Positions 9,958-40,641 of a DNA stretch of 64,000 bases are shown one piece after another. Both the position numbers and the translations under genes were made by a program. The notes below the pieces were generated by a model that saw only the letters and a list, made by a program, of their open reading frames with translations, was not told the DNA's origin and did no database searches. Every line of letters begins with the position of its first letter. Within the stretch, counting starts at the first letter, position 1. The DNA comes from Cognaticolwellia mytili (GTDB taxonomy: Bacteria > Pseudomonadota > Gammaproteobacteria > Enterobacterales > Alteromonadaceae): positions 248,001 to 312,000 of the forward strand of contig NZ_NBOF01000004.1 of assembly GCF_002104475.1 (NCBI RefSeq), read 5' to 3'.

Positions 9958-10004
9958 GGTTATGAACTGATTTTCAGTAAAAGTAGTGGGTAATTATGTT
10001 ACAA

Positions 10005-10292
10005 CTATTTCATTTCAAACATCATATATTGAGTAATGATATTTGCGACATCATCAGTGTTGCAGTGTTTTAAATTGCTCACGTCATTGATAATCTTATC
10101 TTGAATATCAACAGGAAACAGCATTAATTGCTCTAAATATAGATGAGCGTGGGTGTCGTTATTACTGTTGATTAATTCTATCAAGCGATTCGCATGGTTA
10201 GTCCAAATGGCACTCATACAAGCATCCTCATAAATCATTTCGAGCTCAAGTTTTATTACTTGAGCAACCTGATGACACCCAAGATATTGCAT
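10005..10292 (-). CDS. hypothetical protein, 95 aa
   Basis: A small, acidic, probably all-helical cytoplasmic protein with no signal peptide, no membrane helix and no motif I recognise. It is rich in Asn, Asp, His and Leu. It lies between uvrB (convergent) and the response regulator gene on the same strand, 120 nt downstream of the latter, so it may or may not share its transcript. Its composition looks protein-like and no better frame covers the stretch, but that is the only support for it. Confidence 0.5.
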   Translation of the reverse strand: MQYLGCHQVAQVIKLELEMIYEDACMSAIWTNHANRLIELINSNNDTHAHLYLEQLMLFPVDIQDKIINDVSNLKHCNTDDVANIITQYMMFEMK

Positions 10293-10412
10293 GTCATGAC
10301 TTAAGTTTAGAGCATATGTGGCGGGGCATTATACGTATTGGTAATTAAAAAGAAACTTTGGTAATTAAGTAATCTAATACAGAAACATGCTCAGACAATC
10401 ATTAAGCGAGTG

Positions 10413-23063: not shown

Positions 23064-23221
23064 ATAGTGCTCCTGTGTAAATTAGTTTTAGGTGGTTGTT
23101 CTGTCAAGGTGTAGTATTAATCGTAAAATTGAGTTCGTTTTTTTGCCGTACAAGGATAGGTAGCTGGTGCTCCCTAAATTCAAAGGTATGTTCAATAAAC
23201 TTAAACTTAAACTTCAAGTTC

Positions 23222-23767
23222 AATAAAGTCTTTATCAATTTCTTCTTGAGTAATACCAATGTAGCGAAGGGTAACGCCTTCGCTACTGTGTCTAAGCATT
23301 TTCATTACCCGTGCAATATCTTTAGTTTGTTGGTAAAGCATATAACCGCGGGTTTTTCGCATAGAATGCGTACCCAAATTAATGTTTAATTCTTCACCAA
23401 CTAAAGCAAATGCTTTAGCAACCGCTCTGCGTGTTAATGGTTTAGGCTCACGATAAAGTGATTGTTGGTTACGGTACGATTGAAATAAATAAACATGTAC
23501 AGGGTGTTGAACCTGTATTCGTTGAATAATAGTTAGAGCTTTATTGTTCAATTTAATACGCGCTACCTTGCCTGTTTTAGACTCGCAAATAATTAAGGTG
23601 TTATTTTTGATGTCTTCAAAGCGAACGGCTAACAAATCTGAAATACGTAATGCTAGGTTTAAGCCTACATTCCAAATGTCAGCCATTTGCTCACTGCATC
23701 GAATCGCCAACAAGTGACTAATTAAATTAACTTGGTCAATGCTTTTCACTGAATATACTTCTGCCAT
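23222..23767 (-). CDS. small tyrosine recombinase
   Basis: A catalytic-domain-only tyrosine recombinase of about 180 residues. Arg lies in LALRISDLLAVRF, His and Arg in GTHSMRKTRGY, the second His in MLRHSSEGVTLRYIG, and the Tyr in the same stretch. The start at 23767 (MAEVYS) is preferred over a longer frame beginning at 23812 because an AAGGAAG site lies just before it; the frame continues to about 23207, so the C-terminal end is 23207. Such short recombinases occur in integrons, conjugative elements and phage regions. Listed end coordinates are approximate at the 3' side. Confidence 0.82.
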
Positions 23768-23812
23768 GTTAACTTCCTTTTTTGTGGTATGTTTTTGTTT
23801 TGGGTACTTCAA

Positions 23813-24647: not shown

Positions 24648-24821
24648 ATGGTAGACCAAATATTAACACTTAAAGAAGTTGCTGCTTATTTAAAGCTTAC
24701 TGAAAAAACGGCTTATCGATTAGCAAGTGAAGGAAAGCTTCCTGGCTTCAAAGTCGGCGGATCATGGCGTTTCAAACGTGATGATTTAGAAAAATGGATT
24801 GAAGAAAGAAAGGCTAAATAA
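24648..24821 (+). CDS. excisionase-family HTH protein upstream of hsdR
   Basis: A 57-aa single-domain MerR/excisionase-type helix-turn-helix (LTLKEVAAYLKLTEKTAYRL, then KVGGSWRFKRDDLEKWI). Small HTH genes of this type often open type I restriction-modification loci and probably control them. It is 10 bp upstream of hsdR, so it is likely the first gene of that operon. Too short for common ORF cut-offs. Confidence 0.88.
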   Translation: MVDQILTLKEVAAYLKLTEKTAYRLASEGKLPGFKVGGSWRFKRDDLEKWIEERKAK

Positions 24822-24831
24822 GGATGTAAAC

Positions 24832-27597
24832 ATGGACCAACATATAACACCTGAAGATCAAGCCAGATTAGTTATTGACAAAAAACTAGTCGAAGCGGGT
24901 TGGACTATCCAGAACAAAAAACGCATGAATCTTTACGATGGTAAAGACGGTATTCATGGTGTTGCTATTCGAGAAATGGATACATCAACAGGCCCTGTCG
25001 ATTACATGTTGTTTATCGATGGTAAAGCGTGTGGTGTGCTTGAAGCGAAAAAAGATGGCATTTCATTGGGCGGCGTTGCTGGCCAAAGTGAGCGCTATAG
25101 CTTTTCAAAATCAGCCTTTACACAACGTTGGTTAGATGATTTACCTTTTACCTACGAAGCTAACAGTCATGAAGTGCGTTTTTGTGATTTCAGAGACCCT
25201 AAAGCACGTAGTCGTAATGTATTTCATTTCCATAAGCCCGAAACTCTTAAAAAGTGGCTTGAAGAGGAAAACACCCTTCGAGCACGCATGCATGATTTGC
25301 CTGAGCTAAATACTGACGGCTTACGTGATTGCCAAATAGATGCCATTGCAGGTATTGAAGACTCACTTAAAAAGAATAAGCCCCGAGCTTTACTGCAAAT
25401 GGCAACAGGCTCAGGTAAAACCTTTACCGCAGTTACTCAAATATATCGTTTAGCTAAATACGCAAAAGCAAAGCGAGTTTTATTCTTGGTTGACCGTGGT
25501 AACTTAGGACGTCAAGCAAAAAAAGAATTTGAACAATATGATACGCCTTTAGATGGCCGTAAGTTTACCTCTCACTACAATGTAAACATGCTTGGCACAA
25601 CAGGCGTTGCTGATACCACTAAAGTCACCATATCTACTATTCAACGTTTGTACTCACAATTATCAGGTACAGAGCTAGATGATGATGCCGATGAACGCTC
25701 AGGCTATGAAATAGAATCTAATACCGAATCAAAGCAACCACGTAAAGTGCTTTATAACGCTGAAATTCCAATCGAAACATTCGACCTTATCATTATCGAT
25801 GAATGTCATCGCTCTATTTACAACTTATGGCGACAAGTCATTGAGTATTTTGATGCGTTTCTTATTGGCTTAACAGCAACACCTACAAAGAAAACTATCG
25901 GCTTTTTTAATCAAAACCTAGTGTCTGAATATACCCATGAAGACGCAGTAATCGATAAAGTTAACGTAGGTTACGACATCTATCGCATTAAAACAGAAAA
26001 GTCCGAAAAAGGTGACTTAATTGAAGCAGGTACTGCCGTACAAGTACGTGACCGCTTAACAAAAAAGAAACGCCAAGAAATTCTTGATAAAGACGAAAAA
26101 TATACTAAAACTCAGCTTGATCGGAGCGTTATCGCGCCCAATCAAATTTTAACCGTATTAACAGCATTTAAAGATAATTGCTTACCCGATTGTTTTAGTG
26201 AACGTACTTGGGTGCCTAAAACCCTTATCTTCGCTAAAGATGACGACCATGCCGACCGTATTGTTGATAAAGTACGAGAAGTGTTTAATGAAGGTAATAG
26301 CTTTTGTAAAAAAATCACCTATCGTGTTGGTAAAAAAGCGGCTGAAAATACCATTAAAGAGTTTAAGATAAGTCCTCATCTGCGAGTAGCCGTTACGGTT
26401 GACATGATAGCAACAGGTACAGACATTAAACCGCTAGAGTGTATTATCTTCATGCGTGATGTACGTAGCCAAGCCTACTACGAGCAAATGAAAGGTCGGG
26501 GTACACGCGTTATCGATGTTGATTCACTGCACCTAGTCACCCCTGATGCTAAAGCAAAAACCAAGTTTGTATTAGTCGATGCTGTAGGCGTAACCGAAAC
26601 TGATAAAACTGAAAGCCAAGCAATGGAACAAAAGCCGTCAGTTTCCACTGAAAAGCTCATGGAACAAATAGCCCGTGGTGACAGGTCGGCTGAAACCATA
26701 CGTAGTTTAGGCAACCGCTTAATACGATTAGATTTAAAGCTTGATGATAAGCAACGAGCAGAACTAGGCGAATTAATGGGTAAGCCGCTGGCATTGGTCG
26801 CCGGCGAATTAATACATGCCACCAATGAAGATTATTTAGAGCAACAAGCAAAAATTAAATTCGGCACAGACGCACCAACTCAAGAGCAACGTGACCAAGT
26901 ATTTAAACCCTTAGCTAATGCAGCAGTAAAACCTTTTCATAATCCTGATGTACGAGAAACTATCGAAAAGGTTAGGCGCAATACCGACCAAATTATTGAT
27001 GAAAGTGCCGACGAGCTAATAGATGCAGGTTTTGATGAAGAAAAAGCACAACACATCATTGAAAGCTTTAAGCAATTTATTGATGATAATAAAGACGAAT
27101 TAACCGCGATTGAGTTAATTTACAGCAAACCGTATCAACAAAGACATTTAAGTTACGAACAAATAGAAGAATTGGCTGAAAACATTCAAGCACCGCCGTA
27201 TAATCTCGCCCCAATTGAAGTGTGGAAAGCCTATCAACAACTTGAAGCCGCGAAAGTAAAAGGTGTGCCGCCTGCAAAGCTTCTTACCAATATTGTTAGC
27301 CTAATTAATTATGCTACAGGTTTAAAAGATGTATTGGAGCCATTCCCGCAAGTGGTAGAACGTCGTTTCGATACCTGGTTAACCCAACAACAGCAAACAG
27401 GTGTTGAGTTTGATGATTCACAACTTGAATGGCTGGCGCTGATAAAAGAACAAATTGCACAAAATGCAGAAATGATGATAGAAGACTTTGATTATGCCCC
27501 GTTCACCCAACAAGGTGGTGTACTCAAAGCAAAGCAGTTATTTGGTGACAATCTAAATAATGTAGTTAATGAATTAAATGGGTATTTAATTGCTTAG
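24832..27597 (+). CDS. hsdR: type I restriction enzyme subunit R (EcoEI type)
   Basis: A 921-aa translocase/nuclease subunit. The N-terminal part holds the HSDR_N-type nuclease region with DYMLFIDGKACGVLEAKK, where Asp and Glu-x-Lys form the catalytic core. SF2 helicase motifs follow: Walker A MATGSGKT (190-197), DECH (323-326), LTATPT, and motif VI-like MKGRGTRVID. The C-terminus is of the EcoEI_R_C type. ATG at 24832 has a TAAGGA site; an earlier in-frame TTG at 24799 lies inside the HTH gene and is not used. It should cut unmodified DNA after translocation, together with HsdM and HsdS. Confidence 0.96.
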   Translation: MDQHITPEDQARLVIDKKLVEAGWTIQNKKRMNLYDGKDGIHGVAIREMDTSTGPVDYMLFIDGKACGVLEAKKDGISLGGVAGQSERYSFSKSAFTQRWLDDLPFTYEANSHEVRFCDFRDPKARSRNVFHFHKPETLKKWLEEENTLRARMHDLPELNTDGLRDCQIDAIAGIEDSLKKNKPRALLQMATGSGKTFTAVTQIYRLAKYAKAKRVLFLVDRGNLGRQAKKEFEQYDTPLDGRKFTSHYNVNMLGTTGVADTTKVTISTIQRLYSQLSGTELDDDADERSGYEIESNTESKQPRKVLYNAEIPIETFDLIIIDECHRSIYNLWRQVIEYFDAFLIGLTATPTKKTIGFFNQNLVSEYTHEDAVIDKVNVGYDIYRIKTEKSEKGDLIEAGTAVQVRDRLTKKKRQEILDKDEKYTKTQLDRSVIAPNQILTVLTAFKDNCLPDCFSERTWVPKTLIFAKDDDHADRIVDKVREVFNEGNSFCKKITYRVGKKAAENTIKEFKISPHLRVAVTVDMIATGTDIKPLECIIFMRDVRSQAYYEQMKGRGTRVIDVDSLHLVTPDAKAKTKFVLVDAVGVTETDKTESQAMEQKPSVSTEKLMEQIARGDRSAETIRSLGNRLIRLDLKLDDKQRAELGELMGKPLALVAGELIHATNEDYLEQQAKIKFGTDAPTQEQRDQVFKPLANAAVKPFHNPDVRETIEKVRRNTDQIIDESADELIDAGFDEEKAQHIIESFKQFIDDNKDELTAIELIYSKPYQQRHLSYEQIEELAENIQAPPYNLAPIEVWKAYQQLEAAKVKGVPPAKLLTNIVSLINYATGLKDVLEPFPQVVERRFDTWLTQQQQTGVEFDDSQLEWLALIKEQIAQNAEMMIEDFDYAPFTQQGGVLKAKQLFGDNLNNVVNELNGYLIA

Positions 27598-27614
27598 ATA
27601 TCAAATGAGAAACT

Positions 27615-29408
27615 ATGAAAATGATAACAGAACTACCAGAATCCTGGAGTTTAGTAAGCTTCGGAGACATTTTAGATATTCAAGGTGGCAGCCAGCCACC
27701 TAAGAGTGCCTTTAAAAGTGAACCAAGTGATGGTTATATTAGACTTTTACAGATTCGAGATTTTGGTAAGAAACCTGTACCTACTTATGTCCCTGAAGAT
27801 TCAGTAACAAAACTATGCGAAAAAGATGATATTTTCGTTGCTCGATATGGAGCTTCACTAGGTAGAATCCTTACCGGTATGGAAGGTGCGTACAATGTTG
27901 CGTTAGCAAAAGTTATTTATAGTAAAAACCTATTCGAAAAAAAATACCTTTATTATCTATTGAAAACACCTATTTTTCAGACGCCTATCATGATGATTTC
28001 TAGGTCTGCTCAAAATGGCTTTAACAAAGGTGACTTATACCCAATTCAGATTCCAGTAGCGCCAAAAAAGCAACAACTTGCTATTGCGAATAAGATCGAA
28101 GAACTTTTTTCTCATATCGATGCAGGTGTTGAAGGGCTAAAGCAAGCGAAATATAAATTACAGCAATACCGCCAATCAGTGTTAAAAGATGCCGTAACTG
28201 GCAAGTTAACTGAAAAGTGGCGTAAACAAAACGCCGATAAACTTGAACCTGCAAGTGAATTACTTGAACGCATTCTAGAAGAGCGCTGCGAAAACTGGGA
28301 AGCTGAGCAACTCAAAATATTCGAAGTAAAAGGCAAAACACCTAAAGACGATAAGTGGAAAGATAAGTATAAAGAGCCAATGACGTTTGGGAATGATGAA
28401 CAAGCTTTTGATATCCCAACGGCTTGGGAGTGGTGTTATTTTGAGGCTATTGGGCAAGTAACTGGAGGTCTAACCAAAAATAGTAAAAGAAACAATCTAG
28501 AGAAAAAGTTACCTTATTTAAGAGTTGCAAATGTATACGCGAATGAATTGAGATTAGATGAAATAAAAGAAATCGGTATTTCTGATTCTGAATTAGATAG
28601 GGTTTTGCTTAAAGATAAAGATTTGCTCATAGTCGAAGGAAATGGCAGCCCAGATCAAATTGGCCGTCTTGCTGTTTGGGATGATTCAATTCAACCTTGT
28701 GTTCATCAAAACCATTTGATTAAAGTCAGGTTGGTAGAAAAGTTACTCTGTGATTTTATTGTTTTTTGGCTTACTTCATTAAAAGGGCGAGAACAAATAA
28801 AAGCTGTAGCGAGTTCAACTTCAGGGCTATATACGTTGAGTATATCGAAAATCTCTGGCCTCCCTGTTCCATTACCTTCATTGAAAGAAGCAATCGAAAT
28901 ATCCAATATACTCTCAGAGAAATTATCGGCAACAGATAGAGCAGAAGAAGAACTTATAAAAAAAATAGAACACAGTGAACAACTTAAGTCATCAATATTA
29001 GCAGACGCATTTTCAGGTAAGTTAGTTGAGAATATCGAAACGGATGAAACTGCTGAACAATTACTAGAAAAAATCCAAACGGAAAAACTGCTTTTAGAAG
29101 AAAAAGCCAAACTTGCCAAAAATAAACCTACAGCGAGAACAAAAAAAATGGATAAACAGCCAATTATTGATGTGCTTAAAAAAGCAGCTGGAGCAGAAAA
29201 AAAAGATAAAGCATTGACTGTAGATGAGTTGTTTGAGCAAGCGGGCTTTCAAAATGACGTTTCTCCTGAAGGCATTGAAGCTTTTTACCAAGAATTAAAA
29301 ATAGTTACGGAGAATGAAAACGTAACAGTAACGCCCGTTATGTTGAAAGAACAGAAGCAAGGTGACAAATTTGAATACAAGGAAGTAAAAGAAAATGAAG
29401 CTGGATAA
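27615..29408 (+). CDS. hsdS: type I restriction-modification specificity subunit S
   Basis: 597 aa. Two target recognition domains (about 1-170 and 260-430) are each followed by a conserved helical spacer, first ITGKLTEKW-like (VTGKLTEKWRKQ) and then LADAFSGKLVEN. Each TRD has the LPVPLP/IPVAPKKQQ type ending. A C-terminal extension of about 100 residues (from about 495) is Lys/Glu-rich and not part of classical HsdS. It starts 17 bp after hsdR and overlaps the next gene by 14 bp. It determines which bipartite DNA site is recognised; the site itself cannot be read. Confidence 0.94.
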   Translation: MKMITELPESWSLVSFGDILDIQGGSQPPKSAFKSEPSDGYIRLLQIRDFGKKPVPTYVPEDSVTKLCEKDDIFVARYGASLGRILTGMEGAYNVALAKVIYSKNLFEKKYLYYLLKTPIFQTPIMMISRSAQNGFNKGDLYPIQIPVAPKKQQLAIANKIEELFSHIDAGVEGLKQAKYKLQQYRQSVLKDAVTGKLTEKWRKQNADKLEPASELLERILEERCENWEAEQLKIFEVKGKTPKDDKWKDKYKEPMTFGNDEQAFDIPTAWEWCYFEAIGQVTGGLTKNSKRNNLEKKLPYLRVANVYANELRLDEIKEIGISDSELDRVLLKDKDLLIVEGNGSPDQIGRLAVWDDSIQPCVHQNHLIKVRLVEKLLCDFIVFWLTSLKGREQIKAVASSTSGLYTLSISKISGLPVPLPSLKEAIEISNILSEKLSATDRAEEELIKKIEHSEQLKSSILADAFSGKLVENIETDETAEQLLEKIQTEKLLLEEKAKLAKNKPTARTKKMDKQPIIDVLKKAAGAEKKDKALTVDELFEQAGFQNDVSPEGIEAFYQELKIVTENENVTVTPVMLKEQKQGDKFEYKEVKENEAG

Positions 29409-31065
29409 ACTATGGATCAGTGAGTTTAAAAACCTCAAAGACATTGAAATAGATTTTGATCAAGATGAACTAGTAACCGTTATTATAGGCTGGAACGGTG
29501 CAGGTAAATCAAATGTCATAGAAGCTTTGGTTATTATTTTTCGTGATTTAGATTTGCACAAAGCACCTTCATTTTCATATAAATTGGAATATCTCTGTCG
29601 TGGTAACCGAATTGTTGTCGAAGCCACTAAAACAGACGTTAAAAAAGAACAATATATAATTGGTTATCATCCCGTAATTAAGTCAGATGAAGAAAGTGAA
29701 TTAATTCCATTAAGCAATAAACAATTTTTTGATGATAAACCAAGGCATTACTTACCTTCTAATGTATTTGGATATTACTCTGGACCGAGTGACCGATTAG
29801 CAACACATTTTTATGAACACCAACGAAAGTTTCGTGAGCAATTGTTGCACCCAGATAAACAAAAACCAAAGTTGGATGAAAAAACGCTGCCTTTAAGGCC
29901 TCTTTTTTATGCTCAAAAAGTGCATAGTAACTTTGTTCTGTTAGCTTTCTTTTTAGGTGCTGATGAAAAAATTAAGAAGTTCTTAAAAGATAAACTTTAC
30001 ATCGAAGATATTGAGTCAGTTCTATTTGTTTTAAATAAACCTGATTGGAAAGGAAGCAGTAAAGGTGACCCGCGTTTTTGGAATGCTACAGGTGTTGTAC
30101 GGCCCTTTCTAAATAGACTTTACGATGCATCGTTAGCACCAATGAAAAAGACATTTACTCTTCCTGACCCTATGAAAAAGAACGGTAAAAAGGTTGATGC
30201 ATTATTTTTATATTTAAAAGATTTAGAAGCATTAAAAGAAGTTGGTAAAGACACATCAGATAAAGATTTTTTTAAACTCCTAGAAAGTATTTATTTTTCA
30301 AATTTAATTCATGAAGTACGTATACGTGTAAAGATTAAAAATAAAAATGGAACAGATGAAACATTAACTTTTAGAGAGTTAAGTGAAGGTGAACAACAGT
30401 TAATAACGGTTCTTGGTCTTCTTCGTTTTACACGTGACGATGAATCGTTATTTTTACTTGATGAACCTGACACACATTTAAACCCTGCGTGGAGTATGGA
30501 GTACATTAGCTTCTTGAAAGAAGTTGCTGGTTTTAATTTAGATGTTAAAGAAGACTCGGATGAGGAAGGTTCTGATGCGGTTGATAATAGCCATATTGTG
30601 CTAGCAACTCATGACCCTATTGTGATTTCTACGCTGAAGCAGGAACAAATTAAAATAATGAAGCGTGATGAAGATAGCTTAAAGGTATTCGCTGCATCAC
30701 CGCTTTATGAACCCAAAGGAATGGGGTTCTCTGGTATTTTGATGAGTGACATGTTTGGCCTACGCTCTGACTTAGATCCTAAAACACTAGAAAAATTAGA
30801 TGAACACGCAATTTTATTAGCGAAAGAAGAACGCACAGCGCCAGAAGAAACGCGTTATAAGCAGTTACAAGAACAATTAGATAAATCAGGCTTTCTTGAT
30901 GCCTATTCAGACCCATACTTCTCAGCCTTTGTTAAAGCGTGGGGAAGAAAGCATGGTGATAAATTGTTCACTCAAACCTTTTTGTCAGACGGAGATAGAC
31001 AGCAACTTGCCGATATGACGGATGAAATACTCGCTGAGCTTGATGCAGAAGAGGCAGGTGAGTAA
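29395..31065 (+). CDS. AAA family ATPase, Septu PtuA-like
   Basis: A 556-aa ABC/SMC-like AAA ATPase with Walker A GWNGAGKS (32-39), signature LSEGEQQL near 330, Walker B LLDEPDTHLNP with Asp356-Glu357, and a THDPIV switch His. Together with the HNH gene directly after it, the pair matches the PtuA-PtuB layout of Septu anti-phage systems, where the ATPase controls the nuclease. It overlaps hsdS by 14 bp and the HNH gene by one base, so it is embedded in the type I operon. The identification as PtuA is by domain order and pairing, not by alignment. Confidence 0.85.
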   Translation: MKLDKLWISEFKNLKDIEIDFDQDELVTVIIGWNGAGKSNVIEALVIIFRDLDLHKAPSFSYKLEYLCRGNRIVVEATKTDVKKEQYIIGYHPVIKSDEESELIPLSNKQFFDDKPRHYLPSNVFGYYSGPSDRLATHFYEHQRKFREQLLHPDKQKPKLDEKTLPLRPLFYAQKVHSNFVLLAFFLGADEKIKKFLKDKLYIEDIESVLFVLNKPDWKGSSKGDPRFWNATGVVRPFLNRLYDASLAPMKKTFTLPDPMKKNGKKVDALFLYLKDLEALKEVGKDTSDKDFFKLLESIYFSNLIHEVRIRVKIKNKNGTDETLTFRELSEGEQQLITVLGLLRFTRDDESLFLLDEPDTHLNPAWSMEYISFLKEVAGFNLDVKEDSDEEGSDAVDNSHIVLATHDPIVISTLKQEQIKIMKRDEDSLKVFAASPLYEPKGMGFSGILMSDMFGLRSDLDPKTLEKLDEHAILLAKEERTAPEETRYKQLQEQLDKSGFLDAYSDPYFSAFVKAWGRKHGDKLFTQTFLSDGDRQQLADMTDEILAELDAEEAGE

Positions 31066-31982
31066 TGCGATATATTGACATAGATGAAGTCGACTTGGAG
31101 CTTCCTGATAACTGGGATGACACAGTCGAGCAGGCTTGGGAATATGTGAATGGTAAGGTCGAAGAAGCGGAAGCTGCAACTATTGTTAAAGCAGGGGAAG
31201 AGGGGTGGACTCCTGAGCAGCAAACAGAGAAGATTGCTGTAGCTAAAGATAAAGCCCGAAAAAAAGCTATCGGTGCAAAAAGTAATGTATGGGGGCAATT
31301 AAGTACCATTTTGTCAAAGCGCTCACATGGTAAATGTTGGTACTGTGAAAGCAATGAGCTCAGGTCAGACAATCCAATTGATCACTTTAGACCTAAAGGA
31401 AAAGTCGCAGAATGCCCTGAACACCCAGGCTATTGGTGGCTAGCTTTTGATTGGGGAAATTACCGTTTTGCGTGTACTTTTTGTAATTCTAGACGTGTTA
31501 ATGTAGAAACTGCTGGTGGTAAACAAGATCATTTCCCTGTTTTTATTCCACCAGACTGGAATAAGTCTGAAGGTGATAATAATTTAGAAAAGCCTAAACT
31601 GTTAGATCCTACAGATGAAGATGACTACAAGCTTCTTACATTTAATAAAAATGGTGAAGCTTGTCCTAATTGTGATGATGAAGAGACCGAAGATTTTCAA
31701 AAAGCAAAAGAGTCTATTGAAAAATTTCATTTGAATCATGGTCCAACAAAAAAAGCACGAAAGGCAATAAAACAAAAAATTATGCAAGTTGTCGCTGATA
31801 CAAATGAGTTGTTAGCGCAAGGCATTGATATTAAATCAGGCCAAATCAAGTCTAATAAAAAGGAACTTATTAAATTAATTAGACCTTCTTGTACCACCAC
31901 AAAATTTAATACTGCGGCAAAACTATATCTAAGAGAATTCGAAGATAATGTGTGGGTTAAAGAAATATTAGATAGAGACTAG
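31065..31982 (+). CDS. HNH endonuclease, Septu PtuB-like
   Basis: A 305-aa protein of the TIGR02646/PtuB-like HNH type. It has a zinc pair CWYC (Cys91, Cys94), a catalytic region with Asp106-His107 (NPIDHFRPKGKV), GYWWLAFDWGNYRFAC, and a second pair CTFCN (Cys137, Cys140, Asn141). This is the layout seen in Septu PtuB and retron-linked HNH effectors. It probably cleaves nucleic acid when its ATPase partner is triggered by phage. The start overlaps the ATPase stop (TAATG), and the stop is 2 bp before the hsdM ATG. Confidence 0.87.
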   Translation: MRYIDIDEVDLELPDNWDDTVEQAWEYVNGKVEEAEAATIVKAGEEGWTPEQQTEKIAVAKDKARKKAIGAKSNVWGQLSTILSKRSHGKCWYCESNELRSDNPIDHFRPKGKVAECPEHPGYWWLAFDWGNYRFACTFCNSRRVNVETAGGKQDHFPVFIPPDWNKSEGDNNLEKPKLLDPTDEDDYKLLTFNKNGEACPNCDDEETEDFQKAKESIEKFHLNHGPTKKARKAIKQKIMQVVADTNELLAQGIDIKSGQIKSNKKELIKLIRPSCTTTKFNTAAKLYLREFEDNVWVKEILDRD

Positions 31983-31984
31983 TG

Positions 31985-33523
31985 ATGAATAATGTAAGTA
32001 CCACAGAAATAGTAAACCGCGTTTGGAATTATGCCCACGTATTACGTGATGAAGGTGTAGGCTATGGGGATTATGTAGAGCAACTCACCTATCTAATTTT
32101 CCTTAAAATGACCGCTGAACGAGTTGCAGGTGGTCAAGAAGGCGAAAGTATAGCGACAGAGCAGTGGACCAAGTTAGTGAAACTTGATGGCTCAGATTTA
32201 GAAAAAGAGTATCGTCATACGTTAGAAACACTTGGTGAACAAAAAGGTACTTTAGGTACTATTTTCCGTAAAGCTCAGAATAAGATTCAAGACCCTGCTA
32301 AGTTAGAGCGCTTAATTGACATGATTAATAAAGAGTCATGGTCCACATTAAGCATTGATGTAAAAGGGGCAATATACGAAGGCCTTTTACAAAAAGGCGC
32401 TGAAAGCGAAAAGAAAGGTGCTGGCCAGTACTTTACACCTCGCCCCATTATTGAAGCTATTGTAGAAGTAATGCAACCCCAACCAATGCAGATTATTGCT
32501 GACCCTGCATGTGGTACAGGTGGTTTTTTAACAGTTGCCCATGACTATATTACAAACAATAAAGCACGCCCACTTTCTAAAAAAGAAGCGCGCTTTTTAA
32601 AGCATGAAGCATTCAGAGGAAACGACATATCTGATTCAGTTGCTCGATTATGTGCAATGAATTTGTATCTTCATGGTATTGGTACTGATGAATGTCCTAT
32701 ATCTACTTCTGATGCCTTAGCAAAAGAAGTTGGCGAAAACAAAGTAGATATGGTGTTAGCAAACCCACCATTTGGTAAGAAAAGTTCAGTTACTATCATT
32801 AGTGAAAAAACAGGTAAAGTTGAGAAGGAAAAACTGACGTATGAACGTGATGACTTTTGGGCTGACTCATCAAACAAACAATTAAATTTTGTTCAACACA
32901 TCGGCAACATGCTGAAAGTTGAAGGCAAGGCAGGTGGTAAAGCTGCGGTTGTTTTACCCGATAATGTTTTATTTGAAGGTGGTGCCGGTGAAACTGTTCG
33001 TAAAGAACTGCTTAACCGATTTAATCTTCATACGATTTTAAGGCTTCCAACCGGTATTTTTTACGCGCAGGGGGTTAAAGCGAATGTTTTGTTTTTTGAT
33101 GCTAAGCCCGCGTCAAAAAAAGCATGGACCGAAAATGTGTGGGTTTATGATTTTAGAACCAACGTGCACATGACACTTAAAACTAAAAAATTAACACGTT
33201 CAGACTTTGATGAATTTGTAGACTTATTCTCAGCTTCAGACATTAAAAAACGCATTTCAAATTGGAAAGAAGAAGAGCGCGAAGAAGATGGCGGCCCAGG
33301 TCCTGATGGTCGCTGGCGTAAGTTCAGTTACGATGAAATTATTGCCCGCGATAAAACCAACCTTGATATATCTTGGTTAAAAGATGATTCGTTAGAAGAT
33401 ACAGAAAACCTTCAGCCACCCGCTGTTATAGCCAGTGAAATTGTCGAGCTGCTTACTGCAGCTTTAGAAGAGTTCAAAAGTGTAGAAGAAGCACTTGTTG
33501 ACGATGATGAAGACGAAGTTTAA
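31985..33523 (+). CDS. hsdM: type I restriction-modification DNA methyltransferase subunit M
   Basis: A 512-aa N6-adenine methyltransferase. It has an N-terminal HsdM_N helical part, SAM-binding motif I DPACGTGGF (about 175) and catalytic motif IV NPPFGKK (about 260). All are intact. ATG at 31985 is preferred over GTG at 31982. It is separated from hsdS by the ATPase/HNH pair, giving the order R-S-ATPase-HNH-M. It protects host DNA at the HsdS site. A strong hairpin follows at 33533. Confidence 0.96.
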   Translation: MNNVSTTEIVNRVWNYAHVLRDEGVGYGDYVEQLTYLIFLKMTAERVAGGQEGESIATEQWTKLVKLDGSDLEKEYRHTLETLGEQKGTLGTIFRKAQNKIQDPAKLERLIDMINKESWSTLSIDVKGAIYEGLLQKGAESEKKGAGQYFTPRPIIEAIVEVMQPQPMQIIADPACGTGGFLTVAHDYITNNKARPLSKKEARFLKHEAFRGNDISDSVARLCAMNLYLHGIGTDECPISTSDALAKEVGENKVDMVLANPPFGKKSSVTIISEKTGKVEKEKLTYERDDFWADSSNKQLNFVQHIGNMLKVEGKAGGKAAVVLPDNVLFEGGAGETVRKELLNRFNLHTILRLPTGIFYAQGVKANVLFFDAKPASKKAWTENVWVYDFRTNVHMTLKTKKLTRSDFDEFVDLFSASDIKKRISNWKEEEREEDGGPGPDGRWRKFSYDEIIARDKTNLDISWLKDDSLEDTENLQPPAVIASEIVELLTAALEEFKSVEEALVDDDEDEV

Positions 33524-33532
33524 TAAATAATA

Positions 33533-33568
33533 GAAAGGTAATTATGTAAAAACACATAGTTACCTTTC
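33533..33568 (+). terminator. 15-bp hairpin between hsdM and the downstream cassette
   Basis: GAAAGGTAATTATGT (33533-33547) and ACATAGTTACCTTTC (33554-33568) pair fully, with one G-U, around a 6-nt loop. No T-run follows, so it may be an attenuator or an RNA-processing/stability element. It ends 9 nt before the next start codon. Confidence 0.6.
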
Positions 33569-33577
33569 CTTCAATAA

Positions 33578-34990
33578 ATGGATTTTTTCTTGTATTTAAA
33601 AAGATTTTTTACTGAATATGATGATTCATTAACACATACGTTAAATATTGACCCATTGGGCATGACAGTCATTTGGTCAGCGTTTGGTCAAAAAATATTT
33701 AACAACAGAGTCAGCTCTATTTCAAATGATGTACGTAATTACACGCTTAACTTGGTACATCACTTAGCGATTAAAGAACTGGTTGAATCAGGACTTACCC
33801 TTCAAGGGCAACTTGCCCATCTATACCCTCAAACAGATGTTCTTGAATTCAAACAAGCTTGTTTAATTCATGCAGAAAATCTATTCGTATACTCAATTTT
33901 AACCAGTGAAAAGCCAGTAGATACGTTTGGTATTCTAGGGGCTTCAAAAGGGCGAGCAAAATTAGGTAAAGGAGAAGGGATCACATTAAAATTTTCCCAT
34001 ACTGAAGTTAGCCACTTGTTAGTGCGTCAATTAACATTAGGGGTAAGTGGCCGTTATAAAACCCCGTTTATCGATATGAAATTCTTCGATAAAGATTACC
34101 GGTATAAGCACCCTAAATATGTTGAACAGTGGAATAAAACTTCCAAATTTATAAATAGTTGTGAAGAGTTGAAAAAAGTTAAAGACTTATTGATTGTTCA
34201 TTTCAAAAAACTATTAAAAAGTACTCATAAGAAACCGACAATAAATTTTGATGAAGTACCTATGGAGTTAAATAACGCTTATCAAACGGCATTTAACTCT
34301 GCTAAGCACGTTGGCTCTATGTGTAAGGATTTTTGGCTTGATGTTTCTGAACTAAATATCGGTGCAGCTGGTTGTTTGTATGAGGTGATTCAAGCTAATG
34401 AAGAGCAAATTAATCGACAACAGGTATTTGAACAGGCACTGAGTTTAACTACAGATTTCGAAGTAAAAACAAAATTACAAAACATTATTGATATTGAACC
34501 ATTTCTTGCTGAATGTGACCTGTTGTTTACGCTATTAATGAGTCAGCGAAAGCAAACAATACAAAATGTCTTAGAAAGTTATCAATTGCTAGGGCGAGAT
34601 ATTAATACATTACCGTCATTAGCGAGAGCACTTGTAGATAATATTCAAGTGAAAAATGTATTGGGAACTACTGCAAAAGGGCGATTTGAATCGTTATTAA
34701 AACTTTCAATGATAGCGCAAGGTGATGATGAAGATATTCTTAAAAGTATCATTTCTGTTTTGCTAAAATACCATGAAAGTATTATGTCTAAGCGAGGGCA
34801 AAGTGTCTGGGTTGAAAATGATGCGAATGGGAATTTCAGTTGCAACGTTAAGTTATCTAAGGTGCCTTCTGTTGAGAAAAGGCCTACAGCTACATGGTAT
34901 CATCGATATTACCTTAGTGAATTTAAACAGCTTATTCATGGATTAGAAGGTCAGAAAGAAATAAAAGATATTGAGGCTGATGCTGCATGA
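33578..34990 (+). CDS. unrecognised protein, first gene of a PLD/helicase defence-like cassette
   Basis: 470 aa, with no signal peptide, no membrane helix and no domain I recognise. The chain looks mostly helical. Notable stretches are GILGASKGRAKLGKGEG near 125, FSHTEVSHLLVRQLTLG, and a C-terminal tail WYHRYYLSEFKQLIHGLEG. The start at 33578 lacks a clear ribosome site and lies just after a hairpin. The stop overlaps the PLD gene start by 4 bp (ATGA), so the two are coupled. It could be the sensor or structural subunit of the cassette, which is inference from position only. Confidence 0.8.
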   Translation: MDFFLYLKRFFTEYDDSLTHTLNIDPLGMTVIWSAFGQKIFNNRVSSISNDVRNYTLNLVHHLAIKELVESGLTLQGQLAHLYPQTDVLEFKQACLIHAENLFVYSILTSEKPVDTFGILGASKGRAKLGKGEGITLKFSHTEVSHLLVRQLTLGVSGRYKTPFIDMKFFDKDYRYKHPKYVEQWNKTSKFINSCEELKKVKDLLIVHFKKLLKSTHKKPTINFDEVPMELNNAYQTAFNSAKHVGSMCKDFWLDVSELNIGAAGCLYEVIQANEEQINRQQVFEQALSLTTDFEVKTKLQNIIDIEPFLAECDLLFTLLMSQRKQTIQNVLESYQLLGRDINTLPSLARALVDNIQVKNVLGTTAKGRFESLLKLSMIAQGDDEDILKSIISVLLKYHESIMSKRGQSVWVENDANGNFSCNVKLSKVPSVEKRPTATWYHRYYLSEFKQLIHGLEGQKEIKDIEADAA

Positions 34991-36933
34991 AACTTTTAGA
35001 AGAACTTGCAGAACAAATAAAAGATTTAGGATCAATTAAACGAGTATGGTTCACATCGTTTAACTTAAACTTAGATTTTTTTGAACGACATGTTTTACCG
35101 ACTATCTTACAAATGGATAAACCTAAAAATCGTATTGATTACGAGTTAATGCAACAGAGAATAAATGGAAGTATTGCTTTAACTGAAGGAACAGAAGCAC
35201 TAAATAAATTGGATATTGCTATTTTTGCTGACGTTCGAATGTACGATGCTAGCGATTTGAAACGTACCGCTATTGATGTTCATTCTATAAACCCTAGTTT
35301 ACTAAACAATGCAGTGAACTTTTCGAAGCAGACTCTTTTTCACCCCAAGGTCATTTACTTAGAAGCTGACGATGGTCGTGCAATATTAGGCGCTGGGAGT
35401 GCAAATTTAACGTTAAGTGGTTGGTCTAACAATCAGGAAGTCTTTGCGTTTAGAAAGATAGCTTCAAGTGAACAAAAAAAATCGGTTAAGGCTTTCTTTT
35501 CTCCCTTGTTCACTTCAATTAATCAGACTGAACAATCAACGTCTATTGCTCGTAAATTGTATTCAGGAGCAGATCAGCAATGGAAGTTTATTCATAGCTT
35601 TGCACAGCCTAACTTTTTAGAATCGTTATTTAAAGATTTAGCAAAGAATGAGGAGCATAAACTTGCTGTTTGGTCTCCCTATTTTCCTGCCGACTTACCA
35701 AAATACATTTCAAACTTAGAAGCTAAAATTCAGCGTATTACAGGCAACCCGATACCACTTTCATTGCATATTACCCCTGATAGAGTAGAAAATAAGCTCA
35801 TTAGAACAAAATGGAGTGACGAGCTAGGGCGACTACAAAAATTAGAAAAACTAACTTTTTATAACAATGCGGTTGAAAAGCATGATAGCTGTGATTTATG
35901 TCATGCAAAAGTTTGGATGACGCCAGATCGCTTAGCCATTGGCTCATGGAATTTCACTACACCTGGCTCAAATTTATTATTAGGTAACGAGAACGCTCAC
36001 GTAAATATTGAAGCTGGTTTTGTATTTGAACATGATGAGTTGTTAGATAAGCAACTTGGTAAAAACTTTATTGCTGATACATCTGACTTTATGAACCAAG
36101 AAAGTTTAGATAAAGAGGGGTTAGAAGTACCTGAACTATTGCCGTTTGCTATTCAAGTTAGCTTTGACTGGCGGTATCTGAAATACACTGTACACCTTTC
36201 AAATGATTCTTCTTTATTAGATGGTTATCAGCTTTTACTTCCGGATATAGATAATTTAATTAATGTCGAGTCGCTTAGCAACGTTACTACAGAGTTTCCT
36301 GTAATAAAGCCCCAGTGCTTACTTTCACAACACTCATATGAAGTTCGTCATCATAACCGTATTGTTCACCGTGGATTTATTATTGAAAAGCAAGCCGAAC
36401 TTCGTCGCGTTGAAGACTTCGATTCGCTAGATGATATTTTTAGTAACTTGATTTCTGGTGCTGAATTGGAGGGTAATGGTAATACATCATTGCGGCGTGA
36501 GTTAAATACGGACCAAGATCCGGACGATGATAATATTAATGACTTTACTGATAGTGACGTTAAACCTGTTTCTCTTAGTTATTTTAGAATGTTCCAGGCT
36601 TGTGCTGAGTTTGATACTCGCTTGGAAAAAATTAATAGTGTTAGTCTTCTAGAACAATATGCTTTTGTTGTCCCTGGCTGTATGACAGAGCTAAAAGAGA
36701 AGATTGGAGTAGAAATAGAACGAGAGGTTAACGTGTTGAACTGGTATATGACACAAGAATATAACTCGTTAGTTAATAAAGCGTTAACCCTAGAAATTGG
36801 TATTGATGAAGGACTAAAACTACGTTTGAATTCTTTACTTATTGATATTGAAAAAAACTCTCACGAACCCAAAAAGCTAGGTTCAAAAAAATATCGAAAC
36901 CTGATTCAGAAAGAGTGCAAATATGTCTCTTGA
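34987..36933 (+). CDS. PLD-superfamily (double HKD) nuclease-like protein
   Basis: 648 aa. Two phospholipase-D-type motifs are visible: HPK (119-121) followed by AILGAGSANLTLSGW, and HAK (306-308) followed by AIGSWNFTTPGSN. This is the HxK...GSxN pattern of PLD-type nucleases and NgoFVII-like restriction enzymes. The C-terminal third has no recognised domain. It is coupled on both sides (4-bp and 11-bp overlaps). PLD proteins paired with helicases occur in DISARM (DrmC) and other defence systems; here it is probably the DNA-cutting effector, by inference. Confidence 0.88.
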   Translation: MKLLEELAEQIKDLGSIKRVWFTSFNLNLDFFERHVLPTILQMDKPKNRIDYELMQQRINGSIALTEGTEALNKLDIAIFADVRMYDASDLKRTAIDVHSINPSLLNNAVNFSKQTLFHPKVIYLEADDGRAILGAGSANLTLSGWSNNQEVFAFRKIASSEQKKSVKAFFSPLFTSINQTEQSTSIARKLYSGADQQWKFIHSFAQPNFLESLFKDLAKNEEHKLAVWSPYFPADLPKYISNLEAKIQRITGNPIPLSLHITPDRVENKLIRTKWSDELGRLQKLEKLTFYNNAVEKHDSCDLCHAKVWMTPDRLAIGSWNFTTPGSNLLLGNENAHVNIEAGFVFEHDELLDKQLGKNFIADTSDFMNQESLDKEGLEVPELLPFAIQVSFDWRYLKYTVHLSNDSSLLDGYQLLLPDIDNLINVESLSNVTTEFPVIKPQCLLSQHSYEVRHHNRIVHRGFIIEKQAELRRVEDFDSLDDIFSNLISGAELEGNGNTSLRRELNTDQDPDDDNINDFTDSDVKPVSLSYFRMFQACAEFDTRLEKINSVSLLEQYAFVVPGCMTELKEKIGVEIEREVNVLNWYMTQEYNSLVNKALTLEIGIDEGLKLRLNSLLIDIEKNSHEPKKLGSKKYRNLIQKECKYVS

Positions 36934-39559
36934 AAACTGGCCTCCTTTGACTGCGCTGGAAGTGTCCAAATTAATGACTTTCGAAAAAGGTATTACTGAT
37001 TGGTGCTATCAAATTGATAAACTTGAAGCAGATAAAACAATGGCCGATAAACAGGCTGAAGGTGTTGCTTATCTTTGGAATTTACTCGGAAAAGAAAATT
37101 TAGCTATTCTGGCGGATGAAGTAGGAATGGGAAAAACATTCCAAGCGATTGCTTTGATACTGCATTTATGGCTCAGAAAACCTAACGCTAAGGTATTGGT
37201 TATAACGCCAAACAAAAACATTTGTGGGCATTGGCGCAATGAATTTAAAAGCTTTATAGCTCATCATTATCATTCGTCAGATATTAAAATTAAATTACCT
37301 CAGCCAGAAAGTAATTTAATTAGACTAGTCGACTCAATTAAAGAAAATAGCGATAATATTTTCTTTACAACAGTGCACTCTTTTAGCGGATTAACAAAGG
37401 GTTATGAAGGAGATAAAAATTTAGAGGCTTCAAGAGTTGGCTCATTATTGAATGAAAATGTAAGAAGTTACCTTGAAGATGGTGAGTTTGATTTGGTAGT
37501 CATAGATGAAGCGCATTACTTTCGGACAATTAATGGTGGTTCACAAAAAGTAAACGCTGCAAAAGCTTTTTTTGGTAGTGGTAAAATGAAGTTATCAAAA
37601 AAAGTACTGCTTATGTCTGCTACACCTACCCACTCTTCACCTGCTGATGTTTATAATATTTTGAGCTATTTTTTCCATGAGGAAACCATCAATGTTGGTG
37701 GTAAAAAAAGAGATGCGCGGTCTTTACTCGAACAGTTCGCCTTGCGGCGTTTTCGCTTGATGAAAGGCAAAGATAACGCACACCATTCTAAATATGATTA
37801 TCGAGTAGAGACTGACTTACCTGTTACATTTAAAGATAATCCAGAAGCTGAATTGTTTTTTGGTTTATATCAACGCCAGCTTGTACATAGACTAAAAGAA
37901 AGTAGAAAAAGTGGTAATGCAAATAAGCAATATCTTTATGGTTACCTAGAAGGTTTTGAATCGTTTGGGGAGTACGATGAAGAATTACCAAATGACGCTA
38001 CAGATGATAATGATGCAGAATCGGCGAAAGATTCTTTTAGTAAGGCAACAGACTCAGAAATGCTTCATAGCCTTAGTAAGCAATATTTTGATTGTTTTGG
38101 TAAGCATCCAGAGCATCCCAAATATAATGCGTTAGTGAAACAATTTGTTCCTAATACCTTAAGCTATGATGCTTTAGATGACATTAAACACCTTGTTTTT
38201 GTGCGCCGTATACCATCTGTGCGTGAATTAACTAAACGTACCAATAGCTCTTATGATGAACTCTTCGCCCCCCAAATAGCTAAAGCTATTGGCTTGAGTA
38301 AAAAGCAAATTAGAGAGTGGAAAAAAAGTAAGTGGGACCGTGAGTTGTTTAATAAATGGCAACGAGCAGAGGATGTATTAGAGGAAGCTGACGGTTCCAA
38401 TGATGACCAATTAGACCAAAAACTGACTTCAAAAGTCGCTAATCTGTTTGTAGTGAAAAAAGACGAAAAAAATACTGTTTGTACAAATGTTGCGCTGAGA
38501 TTTAAAAAGCCTGAAAGTATCTTCTCATTATTCTTAGAGCCTCTTAAAGATTATTTAACTGGTGATTATACATACCACTTTGAACATGATTCAGCGGGAA
38601 AATCCCGTGCTTTATATTCTAGTGCCGCATTACATGCAAGAATAGGTAAATGTAGCCAAATACCAGAGCAAACAAATATAGTTAAAGGTGGGTTTAATGT
38701 TACGACTATATGGGCTGATATTATTCCATTATTAGCGCCTGAGCAGCAATCGAAGTTAACAATATGGAAAAAGAATGATGAAAGAATATTAGAGAATTTT
38801 GCTAACTACCTAAAGGCAGGCCTTCTACATGCAAGTCCTGTAATGATTGAATTGTTTATTTGGTATTCTACGTTTGAAAAGCAACAGAAAATAAAAAAGG
38901 TTAAAAGTGCAGAGGTACGATACAAAAAATTTATAACTTATGTGAAACCTAAATTAAAAAAATCTTGGTTGCTTTGGTATTTCAATGCTGCGATTAAAAC
39001 GTTTGAAGATGTTTGTGAAAAAATTGAGGGCGTAAATATCAACGACTCTGAGAATAAATGGAATTCGTTAAAAACACTGACTTCTCCATCTGCATTTGCA
39101 AGTGGTCAATCTGGAAATAGGCAGAGGCTAATAACCGGTTTTAACTCACCTTTTTACCCTAATGTATTAGTCGCTACCTCAGTGTTTCAGGAAGGGGTTA
39201 ATTTACATATGCAATGTAATAGTGTTCATCACTACGGCATAGCAGGAAACCCAGGGGATAATGAGCAAAGAGTCGGACGACTAGATCGATTGTTTGGCAA
39301 AGTAAATCGCTCTCTTCAAGAGAACGATAGTGCTGAGCTTAGTATTAATTACCCATATCTAAAAAACTCATTTGATGAAGATCAGTTAGCATCATTCGTT
39401 GAAAGGAAATTCGTTGCTGAAGAAAAGTTGGATGCTTGCTTAGATGTTCGTTCGTCTAATGAAATCGATGGTAAAAAGGCAGGTAATTGGAAAGAGTTTC
39501 TAAAAAAACCAGATAAAGAAAGGCGAGAAGTTAATGACCCATACCCACCGAAGCTTTAA
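36923..39559 (+). CDS. SNF2-like SF2 helicase, third gene of the cassette
   Basis: 878 aa. Helicase motifs: Walker A DEVGMGKT (65-72), DEAH (195-198), MSATPTHSSPAD (about 235), ATSVFQEGVNLH (motif V, about 755) and QRVGRLDRLFG (motif VI, about 790). A long insert between the two RecA lobes (about 300-600) is acidic and not recognised. SNF2-type translocases of this form are common in DISARM, BREX-like and other defence loci. It overlaps the PLD gene by 11 bp. All catalytic motifs are intact, so it is a likely motor for the PLD partner. Confidence 0.92.
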   Translation: MSLENWPPLTALEVSKLMTFEKGITDWCYQIDKLEADKTMADKQAEGVAYLWNLLGKENLAILADEVGMGKTFQAIALILHLWLRKPNAKVLVITPNKNICGHWRNEFKSFIAHHYHSSDIKIKLPQPESNLIRLVDSIKENSDNIFFTTVHSFSGLTKGYEGDKNLEASRVGSLLNENVRSYLEDGEFDLVVIDEAHYFRTINGGSQKVNAAKAFFGSGKMKLSKKVLLMSATPTHSSPADVYNILSYFFHEETINVGGKKRDARSLLEQFALRRFRLMKGKDNAHHSKYDYRVETDLPVTFKDNPEAELFFGLYQRQLVHRLKESRKSGNANKQYLYGYLEGFESFGEYDEELPNDATDDNDAESAKDSFSKATDSEMLHSLSKQYFDCFGKHPEHPKYNALVKQFVPNTLSYDALDDIKHLVFVRRIPSVRELTKRTNSSYDELFAPQIAKAIGLSKKQIREWKKSKWDRELFNKWQRAEDVLEEADGSNDDQLDQKLTSKVANLFVVKKDEKNTVCTNVALRFKKPESIFSLFLEPLKDYLTGDYTYHFEHDSAGKSRALYSSAALHARIGKCSQIPEQTNIVKGGFNVTTIWADIIPLLAPEQQSKLTIWKKNDERILENFANYLKAGLLHASPVMIELFIWYSTFEKQQKIKKVKSAEVRYKKFITYVKPKLKKSWLLWYFNAAIKTFEDVCEKIEGVNINDSENKWNSLKTLTSPSAFASGQSGNRQRLITGFNSPFYPNVLVATSVFQEGVNLHMQCNSVHHYGIAGNPGDNEQRVGRLDRLFGKVNRSLQENDSAELSINYPYLKNSFDEDQLASFVERKFVAEEKLDACLDVRSSNEIDGKKAGNWKEFLKKPDKERREVNDPYPPKL

Positions 39560-39659
39560 TACAAATTTTATATGAAGCCATTTAAGGCTTAAATGATGTT
39601 ATCTGCGAGACTATAGGGTGGTTACACAGATTTAGTTACAGGGTCGGTCTATCTACATC

Positions 39660-39684
39660 AAAAGGGAATTATTATTTCCCTTTT
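39660..39684 (-). terminator. hairpin at the end of the XRE regulator gene
   Basis: AAAAGGGAA and TTCCCTTTT form a 9-bp stem around 7 nt that contains part of the stop codon region (39672-39674). The A's upstream give a short T-run on the minus strand. Confidence 0.55.
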
Positions 39685-40028
39685 GTCAAAAACAACGTCA
39701 ATAAAGCTCCAATAGCAGCACCAGTTAATACAGCTCCAGATGTATTGGCTTCTTTGGTGGTTGTAACGTTAACAGCGTCCTCTGTACTAAATGCTTCTAC
39801 TCCCTTTGAAGCTTTAGAAATTATATTTTCAGGTTTAACCCCTAGCGCACCACAAACGACAAACAATTGGTCAATAGTGATCATGGCTTTGCCTTTCTCT
39901 AGCCTTGATAGCACAGGTTGAGATATACCAGTAGCGGTCGAGATCTCCGATTGTTCCTTTCCTAATTCTTTTCTAATGCTTTCTAGTTCAAACCCAACTA
40001 ATGCGTTGTAGGTTATTTGTTGATTCAT
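39672..40028 (-). CDS. XRE-family regulator with C-terminal membrane helix
   Basis: 118 aa. Residues 10-70 form a Cro/CI-type HTH (QSEISTATGISQPVLSRLEKG). Unusually, the C-terminus ends in a small-residue hydrophobic helix (LTGAAIGALLTLFLTKGK), suggesting membrane attachment. It is divergent from the LRAT-like gene at 40147, whose product also ends in a hydrophobic helix. The shared 118-bp region has a promoter overlapped by an inverted repeat, so repression of the partner (and possibly itself) is likely. Confidence 0.87.
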   Translation of the reverse strand: MNQQITYNALVGFELESIRKELGKEQSEISTATGISQPVLSRLEKGKAMITIDQLFVVCGALGVKPENIISKASKGVEAFSTEDAVNVTTTKEANTSGAVLTGAAIGALLTLFLTKGK

Positions 40029-40050
40029 AGCAAATTCTCAAAATCAATTA

Positions 40051-40079
40051 TTGACAACTATCCGATATAAGGATAGTAT
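40051..40079 (+). promoter_or_regulatory. promoter and operator of the LRAT-like gene
   Basis: TTGACA (40051-40056), a 17-bp spacer and TAGTAT (40074-40079). The inverted repeat ACTATCC-N7-GGATAGT (40057-40077) fills the spacer, so a bound XRE repressor would block polymerase. ATAAGGATA recurs next to the ribosome site (about 40133-40141). Confidence 0.72.
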
Positions 40080-40146
40080 CCGTTTTGTGGTGTATATTCG
40101 TATTTAGAATATATGTATTTTTTAACGTAATATAAGGATAACAGAA

Positions 40147-40641
40147 ATGTTGTTGAATGAGAATATGTTTACTGAGCAACTATTAGTATCAGTGACAAAG
40201 GTGTATAGAAAGAAAGTGTCTGGTTTAGTAGCTCATGCAGGATTAATGCTTAATTTCGAGCAGGGTGAGCAATTGGTTTTGCATACGAATCCAGAAAGAA
40301 ATACTCATCTAAGTACTATTGAAGAGTTTTCAGATGGAGAACGCCTCGTAATAAAAGAATGCTTTAGTGCTACACAGGAGGTTGTAGAGAGAATTCAGAG
40401 TAGGTTGTTTACTGATTTGAAATATAGCGTATTTAATAATTGTGAGCATTTGGTGAATGAGGTTCTTACTGGTCTCCCAACAAGCGAACAATTAAAAACA
40501 TCGTTAACTGTATCACTGGTTGGAACGGCCGTAGTTGCATGTAAAGCTGCGAATCGTAATGCAACAACCCTAATAATCGCAGCGTTAGTATTTGGAGGGC
40601 TAGGACTTTATTTAGAGAAACAAAACCAGTTGTCTTCGTAA
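40147..40641 (+). CDS. LRAT/NlpC-P60-like protein with C-terminal membrane helix
   Basis: 164 aa. It shows the LRAT-type triad: His30 (VAHAGLML), His46 (LVLHTNP) and Cys99 in FNNCEHLVNEVLTG, matching the NCEH signature of lecithin:retinol acyltransferase-like permuted NlpC/P60 enzymes. A hydrophobic segment near residues 135-155 suggests membrane anchoring. Such folds act as acyltransferases, phospholipases or thiol hydrolases. Here it is paired with a membrane-tethered XRE regulator at the end of a defence island; a toxin-like or membrane-acting effector role is only inference. Confidence 0.75.
   Translation: MLLNENMFTEQLLVSVTKVYRKKVSGLVAHAGLMLNFEQGEQLVLHTNPERNTHLSTIEEFSDGERLVIKECFSATQEVVERIQSRLFTDLKYSVFNNCEHLVNEVLTGLPTSEQLKTSLTVSLVGTAVVACKAANRNATTLIIAALVFGGLGLYLEKQNQLSS

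Follow-up and report, generated by a model that had tools for sequence, protein, structure and literature searches.

What are the three overlapping genes, here called A, B and C, that lie together on the plus strand of a 64,000-nucleotide stretch of the Cognaticolwellia mytili genome (contig NZ_NBOF01000004.1, positions 248,001 to 312,000; hereafter the window)? An earlier note on this DNA had taken them for an undescribed defence system made of a protein without a nameable domain, a phospholipase D (PLD) nuclease and an SNF2 helicase. The open reading frame (ORF) coordinates are identical to those it gave, with overlaps of 4 bp between A and B and 11 bp between B and C. Searches against PADLOC-DB 2.0.0 match each gene, near full length, to a model of its own: A to PDC-M27A (E 4.5e-176), B to PDC-M27B (E 5.4e-222) and C to PDC-M27C (E 0). 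With three such neighbours on one strand, the locus is a complete member of PDC-M27, a three-gene defence candidate already held in a public catalogue, and no tested feature separates it from that entry. The genes are therefore not undescribed. The earlier note had staked its proposal on the three escaping placement in a named system; they have largely been so placed, although the named entry is a candidate only, and the view that they belong together as a helicase-plus-PLD, defence-like set is supported.

We read the locus as a complete PDC-M27 system with the gene order and plan of Azaca (ZacA-ZacB-ZacC, reportedly due to Millman et al. 2022) but with a first protein that shows no detectable relation to ZacA, a DUF6361 protein, and as one providing helicase-PLD defence that does not need the neighbouring methylase; we put the probability of this reading at roughly 0.6. 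The computed support consists of the identity of the catalogued family, conserved gene order, co-inheritance, the motif residues of B and C, a PLD/Tdp1 model for B and a helical model for A. PDCs are described, in the accessible part of PMC12988326, as putative defence candidates obtained by "guilt by embedding", with experiments pending for most, and that part credits the guilt-by-embedding work to a 2024 preprint by Payne et al. The "M" in PDC-M27 would stand for multi-gene.

The arrangement was followed through 24 related loci: 21 with relatives of A from a scan of genome contigs, two plasmid loci and one further genome stretch. A, B and C stand in order at 19 of them (18 with an intact A and one, L034, with A in two pieces), and a helicase gene follows B at all 19. 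The other five are cut by a contig end, broken, or both: contigs end inside B in L015 and L024 and inside A in L028; in L032 the frames of A and B are broken and the contig ends 0.4 kb later; and L035 holds a piece of A only, with neither B nor C in the following 9.8 kb. Because relatives of A sharing 36-57% identity mostly keep the gene order, the arrangement is not a product of chance. Pairwise identities of A, B and C correlate at r 0.986-0.990 (0 of 2000 permutations as high) over 19 loci that include the window and near-duplicates (L016/L017; L021/L022/L027), the permutations ignoring host relatedness. Conservation profiles drew, with fragments counted in, on 25 sequences of A, 23 of B and 20 of C; the motif, profile-comparison and co-inheritance sets took only sequences more than 85% full length (22 of A and 20 each of B and C, all three being present at 19 loci).

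A-B-C is thus a real, co-inherited unit, but a rare one. Among 72,556 plasmids, A, B and C reach at least 80% coverage in the same three records, two from Vibrio nigripulchritudo and one from Rhodoferax antarcticus; 46 plasmid records matched C, three of them covering 80% and the rest partial, many in genera that also carry DUF6361. Across 196 genomes, one of them the window's own, full-length copies of A and of B are confined to the same three; two of these also carry C, and the contig of the third stops within B. Weak partial matches to the A profile in G041 (6.4e-4, positions 340-459) and G093 (6.9e-4, positions 207-353, with 2 stop codons) were not counted as A. In a class sample of 369 genomes only the window's own carries the set, and phage records and viral contigs yielded none.

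Protein B belongs to the PLD superfamily, having two H-x-K motifs with a downstream Asn and a model in which residues 1-376 form a two-domain Tdp1/PLD fold. Motif 1 (H119/K121 with G137-S138-N140) and motif 2 (H306/K308 with G319-S320-N322) are invariant in 20/20 aligned sequences, so that both HxK motifs read earlier are confirmed; the label "double-HKD" is apt for His and Lys but loose for Asp, which is not conserved: motif 1 has E (14) or Q (6) at that position, and motif 2 varies there. Fold comparison of the model gives Tdp1, a DNA-repair phosphodiesterase, in the top rows, rows within 1 Z being tied. That B acts instead on phospholipids or another phosphodiester, for example damaging membranes in abortive infection, is very unlikely: the top rows, ties notwithstanding, are Tdp1, and the gene after B encodes a helicase at every complete locus.

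Protein C has motifs I, II, III and VI of an SNF2-type SF2 helicase, as the earlier note had read them, and DEVGxGKT, DEAH, ATP (of SATP) and QRVGRxDR are invariant in 20/20 aligned sequences; its Walker lysine is K71. Of the named families in PADLOC it lies closest to ZacC (97.7 bits, E 1.8e-28), a match far poorer than that to PDC-M27C but better than those to BrxHI (64.3 bits), DpdE (61.2) and DrmD (60.5). The top NCBIfam models are DpdE (83.6 bits) and DrmD (70.6), far below their cut-offs of 500 and 610, with no ZacC row shown for C. In L031 (13178-17005, Aliidiomarina taiwanensis) C lies inside an open frame of 1,276 amino acids, as against 884-972 in other relatives, possibly reflecting a C-terminal extension.

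Protein A was rightly described as lacking a nameable domain, as no Pfam or NCBIfam family matches it up to E 0.1; its model is nearly all-helical, with no significant fold match. Conservation is strong in residues 44-62, a stretch that the model of A alone gives partly at low confidence (pLDDT under 50 at 45-49). Three relatives have an interrupted or frame-broken copy of the gene (L034, about 10001-12296; L035, 1913-3134; L032, 10001-12621), and the fragment of A in L035 precedes an ORF resembling, by eye, a group II intron protein.

The three proteins may be expected to act together. Powered by ATP, C would move along or unwind DNA that comes from phage or is aberrant in some other way, and B would cleave the DNA engaged by C as a PLD-type nuclease. 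A may serve as sensor or as scaffold, coupling B and C or holding them in check: a helicase-nuclease system without a methylase must separate phage from self DNA by other means, which makes A the obvious suspect. The set would work without the neighbouring methylase, the restriction-modification (RM)/Septu operon upstream being a co-located defence module.

The last point bears on whether A-B-C depends on HsdM, as the earlier note had allowed. On the same strand HsdR, HsdS, PtuA, PtuB and HsdM precede A-B-C (Table 1), which confirms placement directly after a type I RM/Septu operon, and A starts 54 bp past the hsdM stop. The set could then be an extra restriction module of that RM system, HsdM/HsdS methylation marking self and A-B-C destroying unmarked DNA. 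Besides this proximity, such a role is favoured by L018 (Marinomonas), where A-B-C sits between hsdM-hsdS and hsdR, and by L028 and L029, where type I RM genes lie upstream; but these three are the only ones of the 24 loci that type I RM genes adjoin, not the consistent hsdM/hsdS linkage of a type I RM accessory. Sixteen complete loci have flanks of at least 9.2 kb upstream and at least 3.6 kb downstream, and in 14 of them no adenine methylase was detected by a scan (five-sequence HsdM profile for ORFs of at least 150 amino acids; motif pattern for ORFs of at least 250) that can miss distant or unusual methylases; none was detected at plasmid loci L011 and L012. Conversely, HsdS-PtuA-PtuB-HsdM occurs in the window's order on the Pantoea eucalypti plasmid pEuc2, and a Vibrio vulnificus plasmid bears the four genes as HsdM-HsdS-PtuA-PtuB, both plasmids lacking A-B-C. 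Each module is found without the other, and dependence on HsdM is therefore unlikely; A-B-C probably does not require the neighbouring methylase, to judge from these sequence comparisons, and we regard the RM-module explanation as quite unlikely.

In the window (29395-33523), and likewise in L052 (6748-12446) and L053 (3065-8747), the Septu-like PtuA/PtuB pair forms part of a type I RM operon. With a three-sequence profile, HsdR was not found around HsdM, HsdS, PtuA and PtuB on pEuc2 (20.9 kb) or the V. vulnificus plasmid (12.1 kb), as if PtuAB on these two plasmids had replaced the restriction subunit.

Table 1. Coordinates in the window of A, B and C and of neighbouring features
Feature	Position	Strand	Description
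Gene A	33578-34990	+	470 aa, PDC-M27A; nearly all-helical model; proposed sensor/scaffold
Gene B	34987-36933	+	648 aa, PDC-M27B, PLD superfamily; Tdp1/PLD-fold model, paired H-K-N motifs
Gene C	36923-39559	+	878 aa, PDC-M27C; SNF2-type SF2 helicase
HsdR	24799-27597	+	PADLOC/Pfam profile matches; neighbour
HsdS	27615-29408	+	PADLOC/Pfam profile matches; neighbour
PtuA-like ATPase	29395-31065	+	PADLOC/NCBIfam matches; neighbour inside type I RM operon
PtuB-like	31065-31982	+	PADLOC/NCBIfam matches; neighbour inside type I RM operon
HsdM, type I adenine methylase	31982-33523	+	PADLOC/Pfam; neighbour, outside A-B-C set
Inverted repeat, 15-bp stem	33533-33568	+	between hsdM and A
Tyrosine integrase	18718-19887	+	left side of island
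Shorter integrase ORF	23207-23812		left of A-B-C

The tyrosine integrase and the shorter integrase ORF to the left make "island" a fair label for the region, as had been proposed. The inverted repeat between hsdM and A has an RNA fold z of -5.02, equalled by 0 of 200 shuffles, and is single-copy in the genome with up to 3 mismatches allowed; it contains AGAAAGG, with ATG-TAA five bases further on. Inspection by eye and folding of roughly 100 bp preceding A in 21 relatives showed no counterpart. Beyond the set, at 39672-40641, lie a Cro/C1-type regulator on the minus strand and, divergently oriented, a protein whose LRAT-like match is weak (E 1.9e-4, below the Pfam cut-off), and an RtcR-like CARF-AAA-HTH regulator occupies 10413-11774 (PADLOC E 7.3e-111).

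Flanks elsewhere were scanned with PADLOC for nine proteins chosen among the larger ORFs, not all ORFs, of six loci. Five of the nine, in five loci, matched at E <=1e-10: type I restriction enzymes (L018, L029), Druantia DruE3 (L026), a GajB-like helicase (L025) and a partial PDC-M26A (L021); no match at that threshold was obtained among the larger ORFs scanned in L030. Downstream of A-B-C on a Vibrio nigripulchritudo plasmid (L011, 24753-26654), a SLATT-domain protein is annotated beside a reverse transcriptase. Defence-type neighbours at several loci speak against A-B-C being a module for DNA repair or mobile-element maintenance and not for defence, as does its patchy distribution, with three carriers among 196 genomes, the window's own included, and the window's own alone among 369. 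The Tdp1-like fold of B, the SNF2-type helicase, the presence on plasmids and the nearby integrase would all suit such a module, which we nevertheless hold to be most improbable.

How does the set compare with known systems? The likeness to DISARM suggested earlier proved generic. The SNF2-like helicase has domains in common with DrmD of DISARM (DrmA/B/C/D) and DpdE of Dpd, and the PLD protein with DrmC and DpdK, in each case at scores far below those families' own. Both systems differ in gene content from the A-B-C stretch: among the matches listed for the ten proteins at 24799-40638, there is no DUF1998 protein (DrmB) or DISARM methylase (Pfam and PADLOC), as noted earlier, the methylase present being HsdM, and no 7-deazaguanine gene (PADLOC, Pfam and NCBIfam). 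BREX-related type-2 systems, in the part of PMC12839542 available, likewise have an HKD DNase and a Swi2/Snf2 helicase as their proposed effector, but their core DUF499 ATPase and N6-methylase are outside A-B-C. Hachiman HamAB, as presented in the accessible portion of PMC12278908, is a tested case of a helicase that restrains a nuclease until damaged DNA is met; it would share the working logic of a sensor helicase controlling a nuclease effector, but consists of two genes from other families, a Ski2-like helicase and a DUF1837 nuclease.

Azaca comes closest. The same portion of PMC12278908 counts ZacC among SF1/SF2 defence helicases, and a PLD-like domain is listed for Azaca in the part of PMC10952713 consulted. 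Azaca loci from four genomes and eight plasmids were compared, the genome ORFs being stop-to-stop frames, some with extra leading residues, and the ZacC of L042 being excluded. The order DUF6361 protein, PLD protein, helicase, with short overlaps, is annotated in 6/8 plasmids and confirmed by PADLOC in two genomes (L041 and L043, the only Azaca genome loci with all three genes checked); the middle gene is a "hypothetical protein" in L060 and unlisted in L061, which gave no ZacB to the alignment. In profile comparisons (hhalign), C and ZacC are related at E 1.2e-14, and both ZacC proteins scanned have PDC-M27C as their top PADLOC hit once their own family is set aside. ZacC exceeds 1,000 amino acids; C has 878. 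B and ZacB align collinearly across both motifs at E 3.7e-5 with 4 Azaca sequences and 3.2e-4 with 11, and B matches the PADLOC ZacB model at E 5.9e-7 over 77 residues; every cross pair of non-equivalent proteins gave E >0.05. A matches neither the PADLOC ZacA model nor Pfam DUF6361 at E up to 0.1, and since this defining first protein was tested for and not found, PDC-M27 is not filed as Azaca. The same order, the similar plan and the reciprocal affinity of C and ZacC could mean that A-B-C is a diverged Azaca type whose A is a ZacA too diverged to detect; set against the lack of any such match to A and its profile comparison with ZacA, we think this unlikely.

Several points weigh against our preferred reading, that of a complete, methylase-independent PDC-M27 system on the Azaca plan. 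No relation between A and ZacA is detected (hhalign probability 0.3%, 22 against 12 sequences) and the link between B and ZacB is weak (probability 71% when 4 Azaca sequences are used and 39% when 11 are), which leaves C, the gene order and the overall plan as the basis for "Azaca-like". That B cuts DNA as a PLD-type nuclease is assumed from its modelled fold and helicase partner, and the co-inheritance correlation includes near-duplicate loci and is uncorrected for host relatedness. As PDC families are found by their position in or near defence systems, the defence context here is not independent support. The name PDC-M27 was not found in the text of the literature searched (supplementary files lay outside the search), nor was any experiment showing phage protection by it.

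What had been a vague "new system" thus becomes a specific one: catalogued, apparently uncharacterised, co-inherited, present on plasmids, mostly in methylase-free neighbourhoods, and closest to Azaca. Its interest is moderate, since PDC-M27 is apparently uncharacterised and A has no recognised fold, though the family is already catalogued. Tentatively, PDC-M27 and Azaca may be variants of a single helicase-PLD machine that has no methylase, set apart by the exchange of its first subunit for an unrelated protein. If so, M27A would represent a new helical sensor fold controlling when the helicase-nuclease core goes into action, and comparing M27A with ZacA would reveal how such cores gain new triggers.

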